From Bryoerythrophyllum caledonicum (lineage: Eukaryota; Streptophyta; Bryopsida; Pottiales; Pottiaceae), in the NCBI GenBank assembly GCA_963971425.1, contig OZ020518.1, forward strand, positions 11,042,190 through 11,106,189: a stretch of 64,000 nucleotides of DNA, given 5' to 3'. Position numbers and translations under genes: made by a program. The notes under the pieces are model-generated. The model saw only the letters and a program-made list of their open reading frames with translations. It searched no databases and was not told where the DNA came from. This document shows, in pieces, positions 20,207 through 55,631 of this stretch. Position 1 is the first letter of the stretch; every line of letters starts with the position of its first letter.

Positions 20207-20721
20207 TCAACTTTTCAGAGTACATGTGTAATCCCATCTTGGCCCACCCTCTATCTAGTTTCAATGTATTGAGGACTCTTTAAATCATGGCTCCCACCCT
20301 TCAAATTTGTAGGGAATTAAGAGCCTTCAAAAAATGTCCCTTGAAAGCATTAATGAGGCACTTTTGGCTCAAAGTTTAATGACTCTTTTTGGTCTTCGTG
20401 CCATCAAATGAGGAGGTGTTGCCACATGGCGCAAAAGAGGTTTAGATAGCAAGGTTGACGGTCTATTTAGAGGGTGGGGTTGAGGTGCAAGACCCTTCAG
20501 GTGGCCACCCATTTTTGTAGACTCTCTAATTGTCTCTTGAGGTTAAGGGCCTAATTTACAGTTATTGCATTGAGGATGCCCTAAGGGTTTTCTTTTGTCC
20601 TCAGCTTCTTTACAACGCTAAACCTGAACTTGAAGGGAATGAAGCACCTCAAGCGCTTTGGAGCTGAAGGCCAACAAGTTTTTCACTCAATGTGAGGGGT
20701 TTGGATCATTAGATATAACAA

Positions 20722-20754
<33 letters not shown>

Positions 20755-20815
20755 CTTAGATTTTTATTTTTTATTTTATTTTTATTTTTATTTATTTATT
20801 TATTTATATATATAC
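20722..20815. repeat. AC/AT microsatellite and AT-rich low-complexity tract
   Basis: A run of CA dinucleotides changes into TA dinucleotides and then T-rich tetranucleotide (ATTT) repeats. Confidence 0.9.
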
Positions 20816-21030
20816 ACATGCACACATTGTGGAAATAAAAATGTATGAGTTTTATAGGGTGATAATAAAATATTATAAATATATGGATTAGAAAACAATA
20901 TACTATTTATTTGGATTTTATATATTCTTTAATATAAGTGTAATTTCATATAATATGTATAAATTTTACTTAGTTTTTTGAAAACATATAAAGACAATAG
21001 AAAATTTGTATGAAAATACAATATTCATAA

Positions 21031-21388
21031 GAAGAAGATGAGGAACTCTGGTCCTTGTCAAGGACCGACGTGAATATAGTGTTTGTTCATTCTCTTCACT
21101 AAGCCCATGACCACAGGACATAGGATAGTGTAATAAAACTACTTCCCCCTTTCAAGAATAAACACTTTTTTACACTATGTGCTTCTCTACACTAAGTGCC
21201 TAAGAGGCAAGCAAAATGTCATTCCCCCTAAGGCTTTTCGGATACCCATACAATGAAGTCTTAAGACCCCCGACCATAATTCGGTGGGCAATGGTGGTAG
21301 GAACCACGCCGGCATGGGGACTTGAACTCACAACCACCTCTCTGGTGTGCCATGACTCAAACCACTACACCAAGGCCATGGTGCCTTT
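21031..21388 (-). mobile_element. tRNA-derived SINE, full-length copy (family S1, copy 1)
   Basis: A 358-bp unit on the minus strand has an internal pol III promoter at its head: box A-like TGGTGTAGTGG and box B-like GAGTTCAAGTCCC. It ends with a short hairpin (GGTCCTTGACAAGGACC) and a TTCTTCTT tail rather than poly(A). A perfect 12-bp target duplication, acaatattcata, flanks it at 21019-21030 and 21389-21400. This is textbook evidence of retroposition. Other copies lie at 43554, 48897 and 50961. It needs a partner LINE for reverse transcription; none is seen in the window. Confidence 0.93.
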
Positions 21389-21414
21389 ACAATATTCATA
21401 TATTTTACTCTTAA

Positions 21415-21698
21415 CCCTTTTTAGACCTAAAGATCATTTTTGGATTGTTAAGGCACAATAATCTCCATACCAAACACTAGAAGCCACCTCCTTAAAAAAT
21501 TTAAACGAGGACATGGAGGTGGAAGATGAGCATCTATTGAGACCATTGCCTCAAAAGATTCGCGAGCTACAGCGATTTCCACGAAGTGGGATGGTAGGTT
21601 TTTATGCTGAAATGAATCTAGTGTGTAAATGTCATTCTACATGATCCATAATACTCGTAGTTTTTCACAGGCTAAACAAGCTACTTGGCCTCAAAGGG
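21415..21698. mobile_element. piggyBac-like MITE (family P1, copy 1)
   Basis: 284 bp with TIRs of the CCCTTTNNAGRCC type, flanked by TTAA at 21411-21414 and 21699-21702. TTAA duplication with CCC-starting ends is the signature of the piggyBac superfamily. It is non-coding. It forms the outer end of the left arm of the long inverted repeat. Confidence 0.78.
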
Positions 21699-21877
21699 TT
21701 AAGAACGTACCAAAGTATGTCATATTCTTGTTTTAAACCTTTTCCATTATTTAAACTCTTCACTTCATTTTCTTCACATCTCTATGTGGTTCAATTCATT
21801 TTCTTCACTTCTCCATATATAAATGTAATGGATCATAAATAAAATCCTATTATTATGCAAACTATTATATTTATTGT

Positions 21878-21922
<45 letters not shown>

Positions 21923-23319
21923 AAGTGATTATTAAAAAATTGATTAAATTTATTGTATATGAATAATGGTTTATTGACTTTTATATGCAAACCATATTAT
22001 CCCTTGGCCAAGGATCCGAAGTTGTTCTCTTTAACAAACTCTTTGATTGGATTTAAATAAATTAAATCCAACTAGATGTAAATGATTTAAATTTGTGTGA
22101 ATAAATATCATACATTTATTATTTTATATAGAGGTCTTTCTGGTCACCATAATTTAATGACACTTATGGTGCCAAGGCAAAGAGAATTATAAAATACACT
22201 TTAGTTAAAAATTTTAAATGAGCCTTATTTACAACATCTTCTCCTTGCCATTTTACAACACCTTTTGCCTACTATTTCAATCTTTGCATTCTTTACATTA
22301 GTTTTGTCATATTTTAATCTTAAACTATGCTTGACATATGCATGCTAAGAACTTGGCGAGAACAAACCTGTAACCTTTTGTGAAAATTTAGCCTATGAAT
22401 GTAATTGTTCCTCAAATGCAGGTTGCTCTGCAAGAAGCCTTAGAAGAAGTTGTGCAAGCAACGTTTGCTGTCTACAACTTTGAGGCTATTGGAAGTGGAC
22501 CTGTTTGTAGAACTGCAAGAAGCAACTCAATGCCACTTTGAATAGCCTCAAAGTTGTAGACCACATAATTTGTTGCTTGCACAACTTCTTCTTGGGCTTC
22601 TTGCAGAGCAACTAGCATTCCAGGAATAATAACATTCACAGGCTAGATTTTCACAATAGGTCACAAGTTTGTTCTCGCCAAGTTCTTAGCATGCATATGT
22701 CAAGTGTAGTTAAAGATTAAAATATGACAAAACTAATGTAAAAAGTGCAATAGAATGAAATAGTTGGAAGAAGGTGTTGTAAAATGGCAAGGAGAAGATG
22801 TTGTAAATAAGACTCATTTTAAAACTTAAACTCAAGTATATTTTATAATTCTCTTTGCCTTGGCACCATAAGTGTCATTAAATTATGGTGACCTGAAGAC
22901 CACAATATAAAATAATAATTATATGATATTTATTCACACAAATTTAAATCATTTAAATTATTTAAATCCAATCAAAAAGTTTGCTTAGGAGAACAACCTT
23001 GGATCCTTGGCCAAAGGATATTATGGTTTGCATATAATAGTCAATCAATCATTATTTATGTGCAATAAATTGAATGATTTTTTTCAAAAATCACTTCAAT
23101 GTATATATCTAGTACAATGAATATAATAGTTTGAATAATAATAGAATTTTATTTATGATCCATTATATTTGTATATAGAGAGGTGAAGAAAATGAATTGA
23201 ACCATATACGACAGAGGTGGAGAAAATGAATTGAACTATAGAGAGAAGTAGAGAAAATTAATTGAAGAGTTCAAATAATAGAAAAGGTTCAAAACAAGAA
23301 TACTTTGGTACATTCTTAA

Positions 23320-23605
23320 CCCTTTAAGGCCAATTAGCTTGTTTAGTGTGTGAAAAACTACGAGTATTATAGATCATGTAGAATGACACTTACGCCCAAG
23401 ATATGTTTCAGCACAAAAACCTACGATCCCACTTCATGGAAATCACTGTAGCTTGCCGATCTTTTGTGACAATGGTATCAATAGATGCTCATCTTCCTCC
23501 ACCTCTATATCCTTGTTCAAATTTTTCATGGAGGTGGCTTGTAGCATTTGCTATGGAGAATATTGTGCCGAAACGACCCAAAAATGGTCTTTGGGCCTTA
23601 AAGGG
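23320..23605. mobile_element. piggyBac-like MITE (family P1, copy 2)
   Basis: 286 bp, TIRs CCCTTTAAGGCC and GGCCTTAAAGGG, flanked by TTAA at 23316-23319 and 23606-23609. It is inverted relative to copy 1 and closely similar to it. It has the cleanest TIRs of the family. Confidence 0.85.
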
Positions 23606-23639
23606 TTAAGTGTATAACATATGAATATTTGATTTTCAT

Positions 23640-23960
23640 ACAAATTTTTTATTGTCTAAGCAATTGTCAATGCATTGAATCCTTGGCCAGGGAATAATAT
23701 GGTTTGCATATGAAAATCAGCTAACCTTTATGTAGATGCAATGGCTCTAATCAATTTAAAAAGATGATTTACTTAATTTATTATTACAATAAATGTAATA
23801 ATTTGCATCATAGCAGGATTTTATTTTATGATCTATTACATTTAGATATGGAGAGGTGGAGAAAATAATAATGATGAAGAAAAAAAAAGAGGGATTGAAA
23901 TAATGGAAATAATCTAAAACAAGAATATGACATAATTTAGTACATCTTTATGAGTATATG
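23640..23960 (+). repeat. Partial direct copy of the inverted-repeat arm
   Basis: About 320 bp resemble 22990-23310: 'gaatccttggccagggaataatatggtttgcatat', then an AT-rich block, then 'gatctattacatttagatatggagaggtggagaaaat'. It is more diverged than the two arms are from each other, so it may be an older copy of the sequence that was later inverted-duplicated. Confidence 0.7.
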
Positions 23961-25014
23961 AATATTTTTATTTCATTTTTTTAAATTATATAGTAGATGT
24001 AGTAAATAAATTATACACATATTATATGAGATGATACTCAATATTTGACAATATATGAACGTTGGATAAATACTTTAATTAAATTTTATAATTTGTATAA
24101 TTATATCATTTAAATATCACCATATAAATTCATACATTTTTTTCCCATATTGTATACATGTGTTTTTAATATAAAAAAATCTTGGGTTCATTTTTTGTAT
24201 GATGTATTTGCGATATGAGCTAGAGAAGGATTGAAGTCATTATTGTTTTATATAAATGATATGGTTTGATTGATGATGGAAGCACATATTATCCAAATAG
24301 AATCCACAAGAATATATTGTTTTTTACATTGATTTCATATTGTTTTATACTAAGTCAAGGGCTAGAGATTTTTCGGATATACTTTCCACAGTTGAAGTAG
24401 CTTGTATTCGGCGGATGTGCACATTTGATGAGCTAAACTATTGTTGTGCCACAAACTATAATTAAGTGTTCTTTAATATATTTTGTAGTATGTTCCCAAT
24501 GTCTTGGTGGAGATGCTCTCATGCAATAAATGATGCATGTCTCACTTAATCATTCCACCTTAGTATTTATCTACTCTTATTCCTATTTTCATTCTTACTA
24601 TCATTTTTAATACAAACGTAACTTCCGCATTGGCTCCTACTTTAACTCTCACTTTCATTTTCACTCCTTTTAATTCCATATCCAGATTTATATTATTTTT
24701 ATTGTAGAAAAATGATTCATTATATAATATAGAATTTAATTCAGTGTTTACACACTTCAATGTACAAGATGTATTGTGGAGTGTCGCCTTAACCTCTAAA
24801 TTTCCTTGACAATTTCACACCAAAAACACTTCAAAATTGGTAATTCTTGTGCAATGAGTAAGAAAGGAAAGAAATAATTTCATTCCTAGTTTTAACCGGA
24901 GGATCTCATTAAGCACTTGATAAATAACATATGCACAAATTTTCATTAACTATGATTGCATAGATTGAATGATTATAACGTTTGAAGTAGAGAAAATAGT
25001 TCATTTCATTTCGG
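23961..25014. other. AT-rich intergenic region
   Basis: Nothing recognisable as a gene or bounded element. Open frames such as 24760-24560 (minus) are short and low-complexity. Confidence 0.5.
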
Positions 25015-25640
25015 CATAGAGTGGATCGGCACACTTTGACAACATTTGGCATTAAAGTTTTGCACTACACATGGTCTAAATTTTATATCATTATGTTGAT
25101 CATAATATTAACTCCTTGTACACCAATTTTTAGAGGTAAAAATGGGGTGTAGTGCAACACTTTTTTGTTTCGTTTGTCAGATTCTCTTTCGGCTAGTGAG
25201 ATATCTTCCTTCCAAAATTTAACCCAACCCACATCTCACAGCAAAGCGAATCTGTCAAACTGTCGCCAAAAAAAAAAGCCCTGGTGTAGTGTATTCAAAA
25301 AAATTGTGCAAGGAGTGAAGGGTTCAAAAAGAGCCAATTCTCGTTAATTTTTTTGGGAACAAAATTTGTTTTAGAATGATAATCCAAACAAACAATAAGA
25401 AGGCTTACACCACGTCTTGTAATAGAAACAATAAAAGGTGAAAAGTATGAAGATCTTAGAGATTTATGTGGAAAAGAAGAAGTTATTTTGTTTCCTTGCC
25501 CAACAATGTGTGGCAATGTGTGAAAATCTTTGACTTGGAATAACATGCATTTTTCCACTAAAGACAAGAAATGTTTTTTGACAATAGGAAAGGAAATAAT
25601 ATTACTTCCTATCATTGAAAATCTCAAATTTGTTAGAGTG
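25015..25640 (-). repeat. Dispersed repeat R1, copy 2 (inverted)
   Basis: Inverted relative to the copies at 7190 and 28660. Shared blocks include the 'ggggtgtag' box, 'ttagaggtaaaaa', 'gtgcaaggagt(g)aag', 'gttcaaaaa' and the A-rich 'gaacaaaatttgttttagaatgata' stretch. No coding function. Confidence 0.6.
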
Positions 25641-27332
25641 TCCTAGCAAAAGTTTTTGGAGTTGCCCAACGTGGCTCCACTTGACAATTTTCTCTTTAAG
25701 ATGGCATAACTTTTTTTCTGTAAGTCCAATGAGAATAAAAATTATACTCCCATGTACCTCTTGTCTTCTTGCATCTTTGCACAAAATTTCAAGAACTGAA
25801 AATATGAATTGCAAATATGGGAACGTGCCCGAGATATGCAAAAGCCCACCTCAGGGCTTTTTTCTTTTAGAGGTGAATTATGCTTGGAGATACAAGTGTA
25901 CATCTACTATATAATAATAACACGCTTAGCGTTCTGCAATAGAATATATTCCATTAGACAAACAACTTTTCAACATCACTCCAACTCCTACTCACAAATG
26001 TGAATTACTTTCACCACTTCAAAAATGAACTCACCAATACTTGTTTTGCAAGAAATGACAACATTTTTGGGCACAAAGATCTTTGCATTCTTGACGGGAA
26101 ACCTTAGCCACAAATTTCAAGCAGCTCATTGCAAAAAAACAACCCACAATTCTCTTAATAAAATGACAATATTTGGTTTTATCAACCAACTATTATACTA
26201 ATATTTTCATTATTTCACTTACAAACCTCATTGTTTTCGTTCTTTCTTTGATCGAAATGAATGTTCGGCAATCCTCATGTGGTACTCCAATACTTTATAA
26301 TATTAAATGCAAATTTTCCATCCCCTTTTCATCCACATTCTCAAAAAGAGTATCACATTGTTTTGAGGATGTTATATACAACAAAGATACATTACAACAT
26401 ATTAAGTTATTCTATAGTTAGTTTTTATTGGTATTAATTAGAAAGGGAATCTTCATCTATCCAGATCACTTGACAAGTTTCACACATGGATCACCAGGAC
26501 TGCTGCAAATTGCAGCCAATAACCTATGCATTATTCATGCAACCACCAAAATTGAGTAATGAGATTCCTTCCACTTATATCATACCCCACCAACATATTT
26601 GACTTTAACACAATGTTTTATATTACATTATCCTAGGTATTAACCCTTTAGCACGGAAGAGGCTCTAGCAAGGTCGTTTTTTGCGTTTTTTTCTCTTGTA
26701 ACTCTTTCTTCAATGGTCTATCGTGTCTCGCATACCCTGAACGCATTTTGAGTTTCTTATTAGCTTTCCAATGGATCATTCCAATCTCAACGGGTACTCC
26801 AGCGAACAAAACAATGAAAAGTTGCCACTAGACCTCCTCACCACAAAATATCTTTCCACTCCAAACTCTAGTATTGGGAAGATAATGTGAGACCTTTCCA
26901 CGGGAGGTAGATTGGTGTGGAGCTTGAAGGCACATCAAGGAAGCGATGACCGACCTTGGTGAGTTCATGTGGAGAAGGTCGGAGTGTTGCAATGAAGGGG
27001 ATCAAGGGGAAGGCAACAGGTGCCAACCCAAATTGTTTACAAGGTTGGGAGCCAACAACATGGTGAAGATGCAAGCGGCACTAAGCTGGCTGGTCCAACA
27101 ACCGCCTCCTTTGAGTAGGAGGTTTGTGCTTATGGTGCAAGTGTTCTTGCTTGAATGAACCATCTATCTACGACCGTCGTCCATATTCTACCCCAACGAG
27201 CGATTTTCAAAGGGTGGGCTCTCATCTTAATGACACAAGGTCGTTTCTTTATGGCCCTCTAACTTAGGGGTTTGAAGGCTTTTTTGAAAAATTTCATGCC
27301 GATTTGGGATTATCGCCCAACTTACCATACTC
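25641..27332. other. AT-rich intergenic region; possible single piggyBac-like end at 26642
   Basis: No supported gene. A lone TTAACCCTTTAGCACGG at about 26642 has the form of a piggyBac-type left end with its TTAA target, but no matching right end was found by eye downstream. Confidence 0.5.
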
Positions 27333-27535
27333 ACCCCAACATGGTAATTCAAACACCATTAGGAGGTTTTTATTTTTAAGAAAGGACCCCAACATAGTAA
27401 TTCAAACACCATTAGGAGGTTTTTATTTTTAAGAAAGGACCCCAACATGGTAATTCAAACACCATTAGGAGGTTTTTATTTTTAAGAAAGGACTCCAACA
27501 TGGTAATTCAAACACCATTACCTGGTTTTTATTTT
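27333..27535 (+). repeat. 53-bp tandem repeat, nearly 4 copies
   Basis: Units of 53 bp begin near 27343, 27396, 27449 and 27502, each holding 'taattcaaacaccatta' and 'tttttatttttaagaaagga'. The first three are almost identical; the last has diverged at its end. The similarity between units suggests recent expansion or homogenisation. Confidence 0.92.
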
Positions 27536-28578
27536 TTAAAATTGTACCACCAATATTAAAATAGTGAGCATGTTTTGTCCACACCTCCACTCGTAATAAA
27601 CGCTTGATGGAGCAATTTACAATGATCTGTATATGCTGGTGGCAAATCTTAAGGGATGTGCATATTTTGGTGCAGGTAGCATTTTTTGGAGTAGGAGGTG
27701 TCGACAAAACATGCCCTCAAATTGTTTTTGTTTGGTGGGCCTTCTTATACTACCCATTGAAGTAAAAATCTCCATGGTGAAGCCTCTTAGATTAAATTTA
27801 GGATACGTGCTCCAAATTTGGCATAATTCTTTTCCAAAAAAGTTATGGACCCCCAAAATAGCAGGGCTAGAAAATTGATACCAATGAGGCCTTTGCCATT
27901 AAGACAAGGGCCCACCTTCCAAAAAACGCTTGTAGCACCAAAACACAGACGTCCACTCTAAAGCAAGATTGAGTTGTTTTCTAATTTCAATTCTATTGTA
28001 GGTCACCTTTAGCTAAAGTTATACACACAAAAAAAAGATGATAAAAGATTTCAAGGATTACTTTTTTAAAAATAAGATCCTTGTCTTTCTTCTCCATCTT
28101 TTTAACTTACTCTCCCACTACTGCATTTGGACCTAAGTACTGGTACAACCAATAATCAATGTTATGAATGATCAAGGGTAAGTGTAATGTATCATCCAAG
28201 CCTCAAGGTACAACTCTAAACCATCTAAGAAATTATAGTATTTGTTCCAAAAAAAGGAAAGTTTTATCTCCATATTAAACTGCAAGATCTTAATCTAAGC
28301 TAATCAACTAATATGCCTTCTAAGCGTTGATCGTATTGATTCAAAGGTTATAGTGTTTCAAATAAAGAAGAATGTTCTTCTTCTTCCTTGTATAGAGGCT
28401 GCTATAATGGGCAGCTGTTGTAATGGAAAGGGCATGTAAAGGTTGTAATGTGGAAGTATTGGATGAATGGTGATGGCTTTCTCAGTTTGGTGGGAGTGAT
28501 GACAACTTGGAACTTCGAAAAAAAATCGTTTTGTTTTGAAATTCTTATACTAGATTGTCCTTTACAAGAGCTTCATGG

Positions 28579-28580
<2 letters not shown>
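27536..28580. other. AT-rich intergenic region, no gene recognised
   Basis: Short open frames only, with no domain content or gene-like base composition. Confidence 0.5.

Positions 28581-28582
<2 letters not shown>

Positions 28583-28636
<54 letters not shown>
28583..28636. repeat. (TA)n microsatellite, about 27 units
   Basis: An almost pure TA dinucleotide run. Confidence 0.95.
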
Positions 28637-28639
<3 letters not shown>

Positions 28640-28659
28640 GATTCATGGTTTGAAAGTTA

Positions 28660-29200
28660 GTACAACTCAAAGTTAGAAATGGGGACTCCGGGCAAAGTCA
28701 AAATTTTGCTAAAAGTCTCTATTGACATTGAGATTTTCCAAATATGTAGAGAATATTACGTTCTATATAGATGTCAAAAAAAAATTCTTATCTTTAGTGT
28801 AAAAAAATATTTTAACACATGTTTACATATTTTTACACATTTCGGGCAAGCGGGGAAAAAAACTTCATATTTTTTACATAAAACCTAGAGATCTTCATAT
28901 TTTTCACTTTTTAATTTTTCTACAACAATGCGTGGTGTAAACCTTCTTATTGACCGACTACAATATCATTCTAAAACATATTAAATTCTCAGAAAAAATA
29001 AATCGTGAATTGACAATTTTTGAACCTCTACTCCTTACACACTTGTTTTGACTATGCTACACCCCTTCTCTACCTCTAAAAATTGTTGTATACGGAACTA
29101 ACATCACGTTCAACACAATGGCAAAAGATTTAGACCTTGTGTAGTGCAAAAATTTGAAGTCAAAGTTTGCTGATGCACTCAACACAGGAAAGAAAATGAA
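28660..29200 (+). repeat. Dispersed repeat R1, copy 3
   Basis: Same orientation as 7190-7680. Shares 'attgacattgagatttt', 'attgacaatttttgaacct(c/t)' and the 'ctatgctacacccc' to 'ggaactaacatcacgttcaacac' block. The copy sits next to a long microsatellite. Confidence 0.65.
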
Positions 29201-30174
29201 CCATTTTCTCGACTTCAAACACTATAAACTTCCAATCTGTGCAGTCAAAGTGTATGAAATTACACGAGTATGTTGCTTAGTAAGTCTTTATAGAGATCCT
29301 ACGGTCAAAAGGATAAACATAAGGTTTTGTTTCCGTCCTTACTCATCGCGCTAGAATCAACAATCTTGAAGTATTCTTGGTGTGAAATCTTCATGAGATT
29401 GTTGTTTTATCAGATACCTCTCCAATGAAAGCTCAATCAAGGTGAAGCAACCCAAAATTGCACACTTCATGACCCAAAACCAAAAATGACCGTGGTTTTC
29501 AGATTTTGAGTTGTCGGTTTCGTGCACCATTTCATGCATTTACCACTTCCATGCACCAATTCATGCATACTCTATTGATCGGAATTGGGTGGCCCATCGG
29601 AATTGGGTGCCCCTACCTTGAAGCGTCATTGCCTCACTTCACAAACAACTCTTTCGACGGATAAAATCTACGAATAGAGCAGATTTCACCGAACGTCATC
29701 TAGGAACGCATTACATTTTGATTTCGTCCGGACGCGCGTCGAAGAAGCGGCGGAGGAACGCGACGAAAACCCGCGCTCGCGTCGCGTGCAGTCACTCGCA
29801 AAAGATATGGGACATCAACCGACGTCAAGCAATAGTAGCAAGCTGCAAGTGACGACGGCGGGCCGAGAGCGCCCGCGCTGCGCCTTCATCGCCACGATCG
29901 GACGCTGCTCATTCATACCCCGTCCCACCATCGCCGCGCCTCTGCTTCCCTCCCGATTCGCGCCACTCGCCACTTCACCCACATGCCTCGCCCGCCCCGG
30001 ATGTTGCAATTGGACTGATCGACTGTCACGCCTTGGAAGTATTCCTCTAGGATCAGGGTTTTAGGGGTTGTGAGGACTGCTCCTGATTGAGCTGGTTGCT
30101 GGGGTTTCGGGTTTTTGGGTGAGTGATGGGGGGATGGGCTGAGGCGTGAGGAGGAGCGAGTGGTGGCGAGGGAG
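29201..30174. promoter_or_regulatory. Upstream region of the importin gene, GC-rich from about 29730
   Basis: Composition changes sharply near 29730 from AT-rich to GC-rich with many CpG sites. That marks the likely promoter and 5' UTR of the importin gene starting at 30175. A 92-codon open frame at 29786-30064 lies inside it; it shows no domain and may be an upstream ORF or chance. At 29540-29575 'ttcatgcat' units are repeated. Confidence 0.45.
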
Positions 30175-48896: not shown

Positions 48897-49158
48897 GGAC
48901 CACCATAGTCCACCTAATTATGGTGGGGGGTCCCAAGGCCTCGTTGTATGGGGACCCACAAAGCCCTTGGGGGAGATGACATGTCGGTTGTCTCTAAGGC
49001 AATTAGTGTAGGGAAGCACTTAGTGTAGAAAAGTGTTTACCCTCGAGAGGGGGAGTAGTTCTATTACACTAGCCTATGTCTCATAGCCATATGCTTAGTG
49101 AAGAGGATGAACAAACACTATATTCACGCCGGTCTCCTTCGGAAACAGGAGTTCTTTT
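48897..49158 (+). mobile_element. 5'-truncated SINE inside the Tc1-like element (family S1, copy 3)
   Basis: 262 bp matching the S1 body from just after the tRNA-like head ('ccaccat', then 'attatggt(g/c)ggggg', 'cacttagtgtag') to the 3' end. Flanked by tcattgatgt at 48887-48896 and 49159-49168. It is the only copy on the plus strand. Confidence 0.9.
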
Positions 49159-52750: not shown

Positions 52751-53498
52751 CGGTGTCTTGGAATATGATCCACGAAAACGGTGCGAAACTGTGGAGTCTC
52801 ATCCTTTTCCAGAGATGGTGAGCCTGGTCAGGCGAAGATTCTCTCAGCGAGCTCCGTGATTTGTCGTCGCGGCAGAGCGCGTCTATGAACAGCGCCGAGG
52901 AAAGGAAACCACAAATCATTCTTCACCCCAATACCATGAACAGTGAGAGAATCTGAAAGTCGAGCTCGGAAATGGTCACCCTGTATTTTCATCTGGGCTC
53001 CCATAATGAAGACCCGAAGACGACTCCAGGTCAATAACTTATCCAACAACGAACTGGTGGTTCAAGCCCTCAACTGTTTACTACAATTTTACTTACGTCA
53101 CCACGTTGACGGCCCCCTTTTTTCTGAACTTTTCCATTGGGAGGTCAAAACGTGTGCCCCGAGATTATGAAAGGAAACGCCGACGTCCTCATGCAAGCCC
53201 CATGTGACCCCACAGTCGCCATGGAATTCAAAGTCACGTCGTTTCTCTCCGTGTCCATTCTCATGTAAATCCTTGGCTTCACACTCCAACTCCTCATCTT
53301 AGTGGAGGCGCTTCATTCTCATATATGTCCTTGGTCTCACATTCCAGCTCCTCATCGATCTCAGTCGAGGTGCTTCAATCGTTCGTTTCTGTAGAGATTT
53401 CTAAGATCAACTCTTTAGCCAGAAATAAATATTCAGCATCCTGGGACATCACAGGCTGAGAGGTTTCTAATCGGACAAAGTGCACCACACTGAGCTCT
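52751..53498. promoter_or_regulatory. Upstream region of the PAL gene
   Basis: No gene is supported here. The last 300 bp before 53499 contain a short direct repeat ('cttggcttcacactccaactcctcatc' near 53271 and 'cttggtctcacattccagctcctcatc' near 53330). That repeat could be regulatory or simply local duplication. No clear TATA box or classic AC element was identified by eye. Confidence 0.4.
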
Positions 53499-55631
53499 AT
53501 GGCTCCACAGATGAAGCTCGATGAGGCGGCTTTCTGCAATGGATCAGTAGGCGCGGATCCCCTCAACTGGGCCAAGACAGCGGCGGCCATGGAAGGCAAC
53601 CATTTGGACGAGATCAAGCGCATGGTGGCGACATACTTCGACTCCGACGAGGTCGCAATCGAGGGCGTGAACCTGACCGTGGGCCAAGTGACCGCCATAG
53701 CGCGCAGGCCGGAGGTCCAGGTCGTGCTGGACGCGGCCAATGCGAAGGCGAGGGTGGACGAGTCGTCCAACTGGGTGCTGAGCAAGATCATGAGCGGCGG
53801 GGACATCTACGGCGTCACCACGGGGTTCGGCGCCACCTCGCACCGCCGCACGCAGCAGGGCGTGGAGCTCCAGCGCGAGCTCATCCGCTTCCTGAACGCG
53901 GGCGTGCTCGTGAAGGGCCACTCGCTGCCGGCCGAGACCGCCCGCGCCGCAATGCTGGTGCGCACCAACACGCTGATGCAGGGCTACTCGGGCATCCGGT
54001 GGGAGATTCTCGCGGCCATGGAGAAGCTCCTGAACGCGCACGTCACGCCCAAGCTGCCGCTGCGCGGGACCGTGACGGCGTCCGGCGACTTGGTGCCCTT
54101 GTCGTACATCGCCGGGCTGCTCACCGCGCGCCCGAACTCCGTCGCCATCACGGAAGACGGACGTGAGGTGTCCGCCCTGGAGGGCTTGCGCATCGCCGGC
54201 GTCGAGAAGCCGTTCGAGCTGCAGCCCAAGGAAGGGCTGGCGCTCGTGAACGGCACCGCGGTGGGGTCTGCGCTGGCGTCCACCGTCTGCTTCGACGCGA
54301 ATCTGCTCGCGCTTCTCGCCGAGGTTCTGTCCGCACTCTTCTGCGAGGTGATGCAGGGGAAGCCGGAGTTCGCTGATCCGTTGACGCACAAGCTGAAGCA
54401 CCACCCCGGGCAGATGGAGGCCGCGGCCGTGATGGAGTGGCTCTTGGATGGGAGCGATTTCATGAAGGCCGCCGCCAAGGTGAACGAGACCGATCCTTTG
54501 AAGAAGCCGAAGCAGGACCGGTACGCGCTGCGCACGTCCCCGCAGTGGCTCGGGCCGCAGGTCGAAGTGGTGCGCGCTGCGACCCACGCCATCGAGCGCG
54601 AGATCAACTCCGTGAACGACAACCCCATCATCGACGCCGCGCGAGGCATTGCGCTCCACGGCGGCAACTTCCAAGGGACACCCATCGGGGTCTCCATGGA
54701 CAACCTGCGCCTCGCGGTGGCGGCCATCGGCAAGCTCATGTTCGCGCAGTTCAGCGAGCTCGTGAACGACTACTACAACAACGGCTTGCCCTCCAACCTC
54801 TCCGGCGGCCCCAACCCCAGCCTCGACTACGGCATGAAGGGCGCCGAGATCGCGATGGCGTCGTATCTCTCCGAGCTCAACTACCTCGCCAACCCGGTCA
54901 CCACGCACGTCCAGAGCGCCGAGCAGCACAACCAGGACGTGAACTCCCTGGGGCTCGTGTCCGCGCGCAAAACCGAGGAGGCCGTGGAGATTCTCAAGCT
55001 CATGAGCTCGTCGTTCCTGGTGGCGCTCTGCCAGGCCATCGACCTCCGCCATGTGGAGGAAACCATGCAGGCGGCCGTGAAGCAGGTCGTCTCGCAAGCA
55101 GCCAAGAAGACGCTGTTCATGAGCAAGGACGGCACGCTCCTCCCGTCGCGCTTCTGCGAGAAGGACCTCCTGCTCGTCGTCGAGCGCCAGCCCGTCTTCT
55201 CCTACATCGACGACGCCGCCAGCGAATCCTACCCCTTGATGGAGAAGCTGCGCGCGGCGCTCATCTCCCACGCGCTCAAGCTAGCCGACAAGGACGCCTC
55301 CAGCTCTGTGTTCGCCCAGATCCCCGTCTTCGAAGCTGAGGTGCAGGAGCGGCTGCGCATCGTGGTGCCGATCGTCCGAGAAGCGTCTGACAACAAGGGA
55401 TTGTCTTCCGTCGCCAACAGGATCCACAGCTGCAGAACGTATCCATTGTATGAATTCGTGCGGGCCGAGCTCGGGACGCAGCTCCTGTCTGGGCTGCGGA
55501 CCGTGTCGCCCGGAACCGAGATCCAGAAGGTGTTCGAGGCCATGTCCGAGGGCAAGCTCATCCGCCCTCTTCTCCGATGCGTGCAGGGATGGAACGGCGC
55601 CCCCGGACCTTTCCCAGCTCAACAACAGTGA
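53499..55631 (+). CDS. PAL: Phenylalanine ammonia-lyase, intronless
   Basis: PAL deaminates L-phenylalanine to trans-cinnamate, the entry to phenylpropanoids, lignin-like polymers and flavonoids, as a cytosolic homotetramer. The single frame encodes 710 residues, the standard length. Visible residues are the catalytic Tyr104 in [14 protein letters not shown], the Ala-Ser-Gly triad (194-196, in [16 protein letters not shown]) that forms the MIO cofactor, Phe131-Leu132 in IRFLNAG (Phe-preferring rather than Tyr-preferring), [16 protein letters not shown], and [14 protein letters not shown]. The C-terminal shielding domain is complete. Angiosperm PALs usually have one intron at a fixed place; this gene has none, as reported for several early land-plant PALs. 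Start chosen: first ATG, agreeing with family length. All catalytic residues are intact, so it should be active. Confidence 0.97.

Follow-up and report, generated by a model that had tools for sequence, protein, structure and literature searches.

The window analysed here is a stretch of 64,000 nucleotides of the genome of Bryoerythrophyllum caledonicum (C6:11042190-11106189), and the genome searched comprised 437 Mb in 894 contigs. The window contains two inverted arms of about 1.1 kb facing each other across a 34-nt loop, an arrangement noticed in a previous sequence-only reading and confirmed by self-BLAST, in which the inverted match spanned 21391-23629 with E = 0.0, far beyond chance. Each arm is a mosaic of an arm-family repeat, a MITE and a host-gene fragment; a SINE is present in the left arm only. 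The features are listed below with the evidence for each, and their assignment to source and copy is discussed further on.

20798-20972, plus strand: outer part of the original left arm, old transposon-family end (inverted match to 24003-24180)
20992-22498, plus strand: source copy (left arm) of the palindrome, broken by the SINE (inverted match to 22533-23657)
21030-21388, minus strand: tRNA-derived SINE-like insertion of 359 bp (left arm only; 12-bp TSD)
21411-21702, plus strand: piggyBac-type MITE, left copy, TTAA at both ends (copy comparison; empty sites in relatives)
21703-22330, plus strand: arm-family repeat of the left arm, inner portion with an approximate inner edge (copies of 68-72% identity in L003-L006 and L008)
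22338-22542, plus strand: fragment of a guanylate-binding-protein-like gene, 3' intron part followed by exon, continuous through the loop (genome matches, exon homology)
22499-22532, plus strand: 34-nt loop, in which the exon of the left half continues (self-comparison, exon homology)
22533-22696, minus strand: inverted copy of the gene fragment (genome matches)
22533-23657, minus strand: right arm, inverted copy of the left half (arm alignment, self-comparison, exon read-through)
23316-23609, minus strand: inverted MITE copy, right (11-nt deletion in common with the left copy)
23658-23674, no strand: 17-nt filler where the right arm is joined on its outer side (sequence inspection)
23675-24374, minus strand: what is left of the original right arm, the "third copy", which lacks the MITE and extends to the family terminus (self-comparison, relatives)

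Pfam searches of three small frames of the palindrome and an Rfam search over 20500-24600 gave no match. Elsewhere in the window, an uninterrupted 723-codon aromatic amino-acid lyase frame (PF00221) occupied positions 53460-55631, with an antisense open frame of 578 codons. The segment 11651-19081 was LTR-retrotransposon-like, with 275-bp direct repeats (97.5% identical) flanking integrase and reverse transcriptase frames on the minus strand. RVT_1 with an integrase core, RVT_2 and a protein kinase were also present, as were two near-tandem 98-bp copies, 95% identical, at 27333-27536.

The arms had been described as near-perfect. Alignment of 21400-22498 with 22533-23620 gave 88.8% identity (929 identical positions, 117 mismatches, 95 gap bases), so this description does not hold. 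The mismatches consisted of 69 transitions and 48 transversions (K2P 0.121). All segments of the arms were similarly diverged between left and right, with K2P values of 0.16 in the MITE, 0.075-0.106 in the arm repeat, 0.126 in 22201-22330 and 0.116 in the exon zone. The TTAA-CCC ends noticed earlier do exist (TTAA-CCC from 21411, GGG-TTAA to 23609), but they are not the borders of the palindrome, as homology continues to 20798 on the left and 24180 on the right. In self-comparison, 20992-21029 was 92% identical to the inverted segment 23657-23620. Further out, 20798-20972 matched 24180-24003 in inverted orientation at 73%, or 77% without gaps (K2P 0.279). The diverged third copy of the arm, placed by the sequence-only reading at 23640-23960, was found alongside, but it spans approximately 23675-24374 and lacks the MITE. 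It reaches the family terminus GAAAAATCTCTAGC at 24361-24374, and relatives extend up to GGAAAATCTCCGGC. The inner part of the third copy was at a K2P distance of 0.173 from the left arm and 0.219 from the right arm. That the third copy is closer to the left arm than the two outer segments are to each other is not fully explained, and counts against the explanation that we prefer below.

The arm repeat belongs to a dispersed family. Genome matches to the left arm (51 listed, from the best 40 of 1053 candidates) fell into two sets, one for the MITE part and one for the arm repeat; those to the arm repeat were 67-78% identical, plus one 52-bp piece at 81%. In relatives, the repeat was colinear and ran into the segment corresponding to 20824-21029 without MITE or SINE. 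An arm unit ending at the inner edge of the repeat was considered and rejected, as homology extends further inward. The two palindrome arms correspond to one and the same half of a TIR transposon; that the family has TIRs is read from a single copy, L036, the only one in which the terminus GGAAAATCTCCGGCC had an inverted mate. A search for a target site duplication of the family found none, and an attempted superfamily assignment gave no result, which are further points against the preferred explanation.

The end elements at the outer borders had been taken for piggyBac-type MITEs, and the copy comparison bore this out. We listed 20 copies (three in the window, the others in L007 and the 13 loci L039-L051), of which 15 were bounded on both sides by an exact TTAA and differed in their outer flanks; one row each of L007, L042, L045, L046 and L051 had one altered or missing end. 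The ends were of the CCCTTTAAGGCC type, and TTAACCCTTTAAGGCC and GGCCTTAAAGGGTTAA were the common ends. For the MITE part of the left arm, the matches listed outside the window locus were 67-77% identical. A scan of L013 gave no MITE match longer than 200 bp. In L040, L045 and L051, pairs of the same MITE lay side by side, close or abutting.

Twelve relatives retrieved at length were inspected for the MITE insertion site. In 11 of them (L009-L013, L032-L036 and L038) a total of 15 arms showed the site, each time empty, and it was empty in the third copy too; in L037 it could not be recognised. This search used a fuzzy pattern, and unrelated matches were discarded by eye. In the relatives the site showed no exact TTAA, being mostly TTAG, and was ATAA in the third copy, which again speaks against the preferred explanation. 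Compared with three other copies, both MITEs of the palindrome carried the same 11-nt deletion and are therefore read as one insertion that was duplicated. The end elements thus appear to be a single piggyBac-type MITE insertion within the arm of an older transposon family.

The genome yielded at least 120 matches to the piggyBac-type transposase domain PF13843, with 116 of 305 candidates scored; many of the matches had open frames longer than 450 aa. None occurred in the 14 control genomes. At two transposase loci, L060 and L061, TTTAAGGGTTAA was located about 0.8-0.9 kb downstream of the domain match; in 14 of 16 positions this 3' end was identical to the MITE end, and the 5' ends were found at neither locus. 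Among the first eight transposase loci (L052-L059), a TTTAAGGGTTAA-type end was seen only in L059, which is the same place as L060. L052 and L053 had TTAACCCC sites, and in the stretches retrieved from the other five neither motif was seen. A MITE survey that covered 207 plant genomes used five superfamilies and one special group, and the available portion of its main text mentions neither TTAA nor piggyBac (PMC12550479). A further inverted pair in the window, at 24788-29388 (24812-25152 and 25283-25667 against 29388-28690, 72-73%), resembled DNA beside the piggyBac-type transposases in L053 and L054. Its left start is TTAACCTCTAAATTTCC, and on the right the inspected stretch showed no clear TTAA.

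The SINE-like insertion is flanked by an exact 12-nt duplication, ACAATATTCATA, at 21018-21029 and 21389-21400. Its minus strand carries what we take to be tRNA-type A and B boxes, read by eye against the consensus. ARAGORN reported no tRNA in the 64-kb window. Relatives of the element were found at 48899-49134 of the window and in L007, L009, L010 and L011. The SINE, present in the left arm only, entered this arm later than the inverted duplication.

The centre of the palindrome gives its polarity. Among the best candidates scored, the segment 22300-22570 matched only itself, the right arm, C15:10964595-10964741 (80%) and C8:5727212-5727364 (76%). The latter two correspond to the 3' end of an intron and an exon of a guanylate-binding-protein-like gene, and the joined exons of the C15 copy matched GBP_C with E = 1.3e-11. 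In the left half, exon homology to C15 and C8 runs through the loop to approximately 22542-22550; in the right half it breaks off at 22533. This one-sided passage of the exon through the loop identifies the left half as the source and the right arm as the copy. The turn point lies at CCACTT (22533-22538), a motif also present in the complement of GGAAGTGG at 22491-22498. These comparisons indicate that the gene fragment and the MITE were in place before the inverted duplication.

We propose, with a probability of roughly 0.8, that the left half of an old TIR transposon, carrying the captured exon and the MITE, was copied in inverted orientation and joined through filler to the remnant of the original right arm, the SINE coming later. 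In its favour stand the similar divergence of all arm segments, the homology beyond the MITE ends, the empty MITE sites, the deletion common to both MITEs, the passage of the exon through the loop on one side, the GBP_C match of the C15 gene and the sister grouping of the two arms in the tree described below. In this model, an old non-autonomous TIR transposon would have captured a piece of about 200 bp of the guanylate-binding-protein-like gene, and its left arm would also have taken up the piggyBac-type MITE at a TTAA. The left half (about 20992 to 22542) would have been copied inverted, turning within the captured exon at the CCACTT microhomology, and the new right arm would have been joined through the 17-nt filler to what remained of the original one. 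As to the enzymatic mechanism, we infer that the inverted copy could have been produced by template switching during replication or by repair of a break with the opposite arm as template; a 6-nt microhomology and a filler could also arise by other routes, which tells against the proposal. Afterwards, the SINE and a TA microsatellite would have arisen in the left arm, and the arms would have drifted to their present identity. The alignments show the mosaic, its polarity, its breakpoints and the order of the insertions relative to the duplication, this order being readable because of the nested insertions and the leftover original arm. The default reading of the locus today is that of a decaying transposable element relic.

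It is possible, but unlikely, that the locus is instead an ordinary long-TIR element whose arms were homogenised by gene conversion, which would have moved the MITE and the exon from one arm to the other. When 12 arms were placed in a tree, the left and right arms of the window formed a sister pair (support 0.995), and the third copy branched next to them (0.955). Arms of one locus grouped together in four of the five two-arm loci (the exception being L010), which favours such homogenisation. Long TIRs have been proposed to attract conversion in Galileo, according to the accessible text of PMC3573991. The distribution of changes also differed by segment. In the arm repeat, 15 changes were assigned to the left arm and 31 to the right (p = 0.026); the figures were 6 and 23 (p = 0.0023) with the third copy as sole outgroup, and 14 and 28 (p = 0.044) without it. 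The MITE showed the opposite, with 25 changes on the left and 12 on the right (p = 0.047), and the total was 40 against 43. The idea of a faster-changing right arm, as from an error-prone copy, was therefore dropped. Patchy conversion between the arms, or with other copies, could account for these segment-wise asymmetries, which are a point against the preferred explanation. Plain conversion, however, leaves a single right arm, whereas here the old right arm persists beside the new one, joined to it by filler, and the exon passes through the loop in one half only.

Half-element duplication, as we propose it for the window, may have occurred in other copies of the family. Thirteen loci were examined (the window, L009-L013 and L032-L038), picked as best matches and not at random. 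An inverted second arm was present in seven of them: the window, L009, L010, L012, L013, L033 and L034. Arms of different loci were 68-80% identical, and in five loci (the window, L009, L012, L033 and L034) the two arms, or large parts of them, were more alike than this. The arms of L009 (L009:2785-7424) were 93-95% identical without gaps and 84-90% with gaps. Those of L012 were 87-88% identical in two pieces and 79% in a third, those of L033 95% over 149 bp, and those of L034 93% over 310 bp and 82% over 119 bp. L010 (74%) and L013 (73%) were not outstanding in within-locus identity. In L009, 133 bp forming the end of a further TTAA-flanked insertion were common to both arms, the full copy being in the right arm only. 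The L009 spacer was searched for a captured gene and none was recognised; about half of it was high-copy repeat. Some relatives thus seem to show similar young inverted duplications.

A long inverted repeat of this kind could act as a source of small RNAs. The predicted fold of 21389-23660 had a minimum free energy of -1359.5 kcal/mol with 969 arm-arm pairs, and 104 of 1125 21-mers were exactly common to both arms. If transcribed, the locus would give a long hairpin RNA like the one suggested for Mu killer of maize, whose architecture it resembles (PMC3440606, available text). We consider it improbable that the palindrome is a functional locus of that type, transcribed, diced and silencing copies of the MITE or arm family or the parent gene, since pairing reaches 89% and few relatives offer exact targets. 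The comparison set comprised 47 loci, some of them overlapping and about ten fetched for another reason. Exact 21-mers of the two MITE arms occurred in 4 and 5 of the 47, and those of the two arm repeats in 4 and 2, most of the 4 looking like TA microsatellite. Exact 21-mers of the gene fragment occurred in 2 loci (one place) for one arm and in 0 for the other. With so few exact 21-mers in the relatives compared, broad silencing of both repeat families looks weak today. The longest exact match to the C15 gene was 21 nt across the intron-exon border, of which 14 nt were exonic, and that to C8 was 16 nt. Present silencing of the parent gene through exact matches was rejected, the longest exon matches being 13-16 nt. 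It is equally doubtful, though conceivable, that the arm family repeatedly hairpins itself, in the sense that insertion or excision of a piggyBac-type element breaks an arm, repair from the opposite arm duplicates the half-element with its nested element and captured gene, and some of the products become Mu killer-like siRNA loci. If small RNAs map here, the locus would be a natural test of whether such hairpins recur in such families and help to silence them.

The sequence-only reading had suggested a composite or foldback transposon, in which two inverted MITEs moved the intervening DNA as one TTAA-bounded unit. The TTAA-CCC motif at both outer borders, with GGG-TTAA inside, and the presence of piggyBac-type transposases in the genome agree with it. 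We regard it as very improbable: the MITEs lie inside a longer arm, the flanks beyond both TTAA ends match each other in inverted orientation and are colinear with the repeat family of the arm, and the MITE site is empty in relatives. Among the best candidates scored, moreover, the predicted second copy of the complete 2.2-kb unit was not found, and the central fragment matched only the two arms and the two gene loci. Palindromes are prone to misassembly, but a false inverted duplication is the least credible reading of all, because the arms are 11% diverged, with the mismatches and gap bases given above, and the SINE is present in one arm only.

The origin that we prefer, inverted copying of half a TIR transposon, can be compared with several known systems. 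Pack-type TIR transposons capture host exon and intron fragments between their arms; a host fragment is common to them and the window, where it lies inside the palindrome. As in miRNA genes born by inverted duplication of their targets, for example miR163 in the accessible text of PMC5388894, the locus holds an inverted duplicate of a gene piece, but unlike in those genes the fragment has diverged so far from both parent exons that no exact 21-nt match to the mRNA is left. The foldback-type MULEs MuTAnT and FARE, as presented in the part of PMC4486113 available, also have long inverted arms and a foldback structure in plants; in contrast to them, the window shows no MULE terminus or 9-bp TSD, and MuTAnT measures about 0.2-1.6 kb. 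The closest analogues appear to be Mu killer and the Galileo "TIR1-F1-F1-TIR2" model. In the latter, one end is repaired from the other, and in extended-TIR copies internal sequence is recruited into the TIRs (PMC3573991, accessible text). Galileo is a Drosophila P-superfamily element, and the window differs by the surviving remnant of the original second end outside the new arm. In Mu killer, half of a TIR transposon was inversely duplicated, both ends deriving from the same end of MuDR, a long hairpin RNA was proposed, and the centre could not be sequenced in that study (PMC3440606, available text). Mu killer duplicates transposase sequence and silences its own family in trans, whereas in the window palindrome no transposase sequence was recognised, the cargo is a host-gene fragment plus a MITE, and the arms are 11% diverged. 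The locus would thus provide a sequence-resolved example, with polarity and breakpoints, of the conversion of half a TIR transposon into a long inverted repeat, an event of the type to which the origin of Mu killer is attributed.
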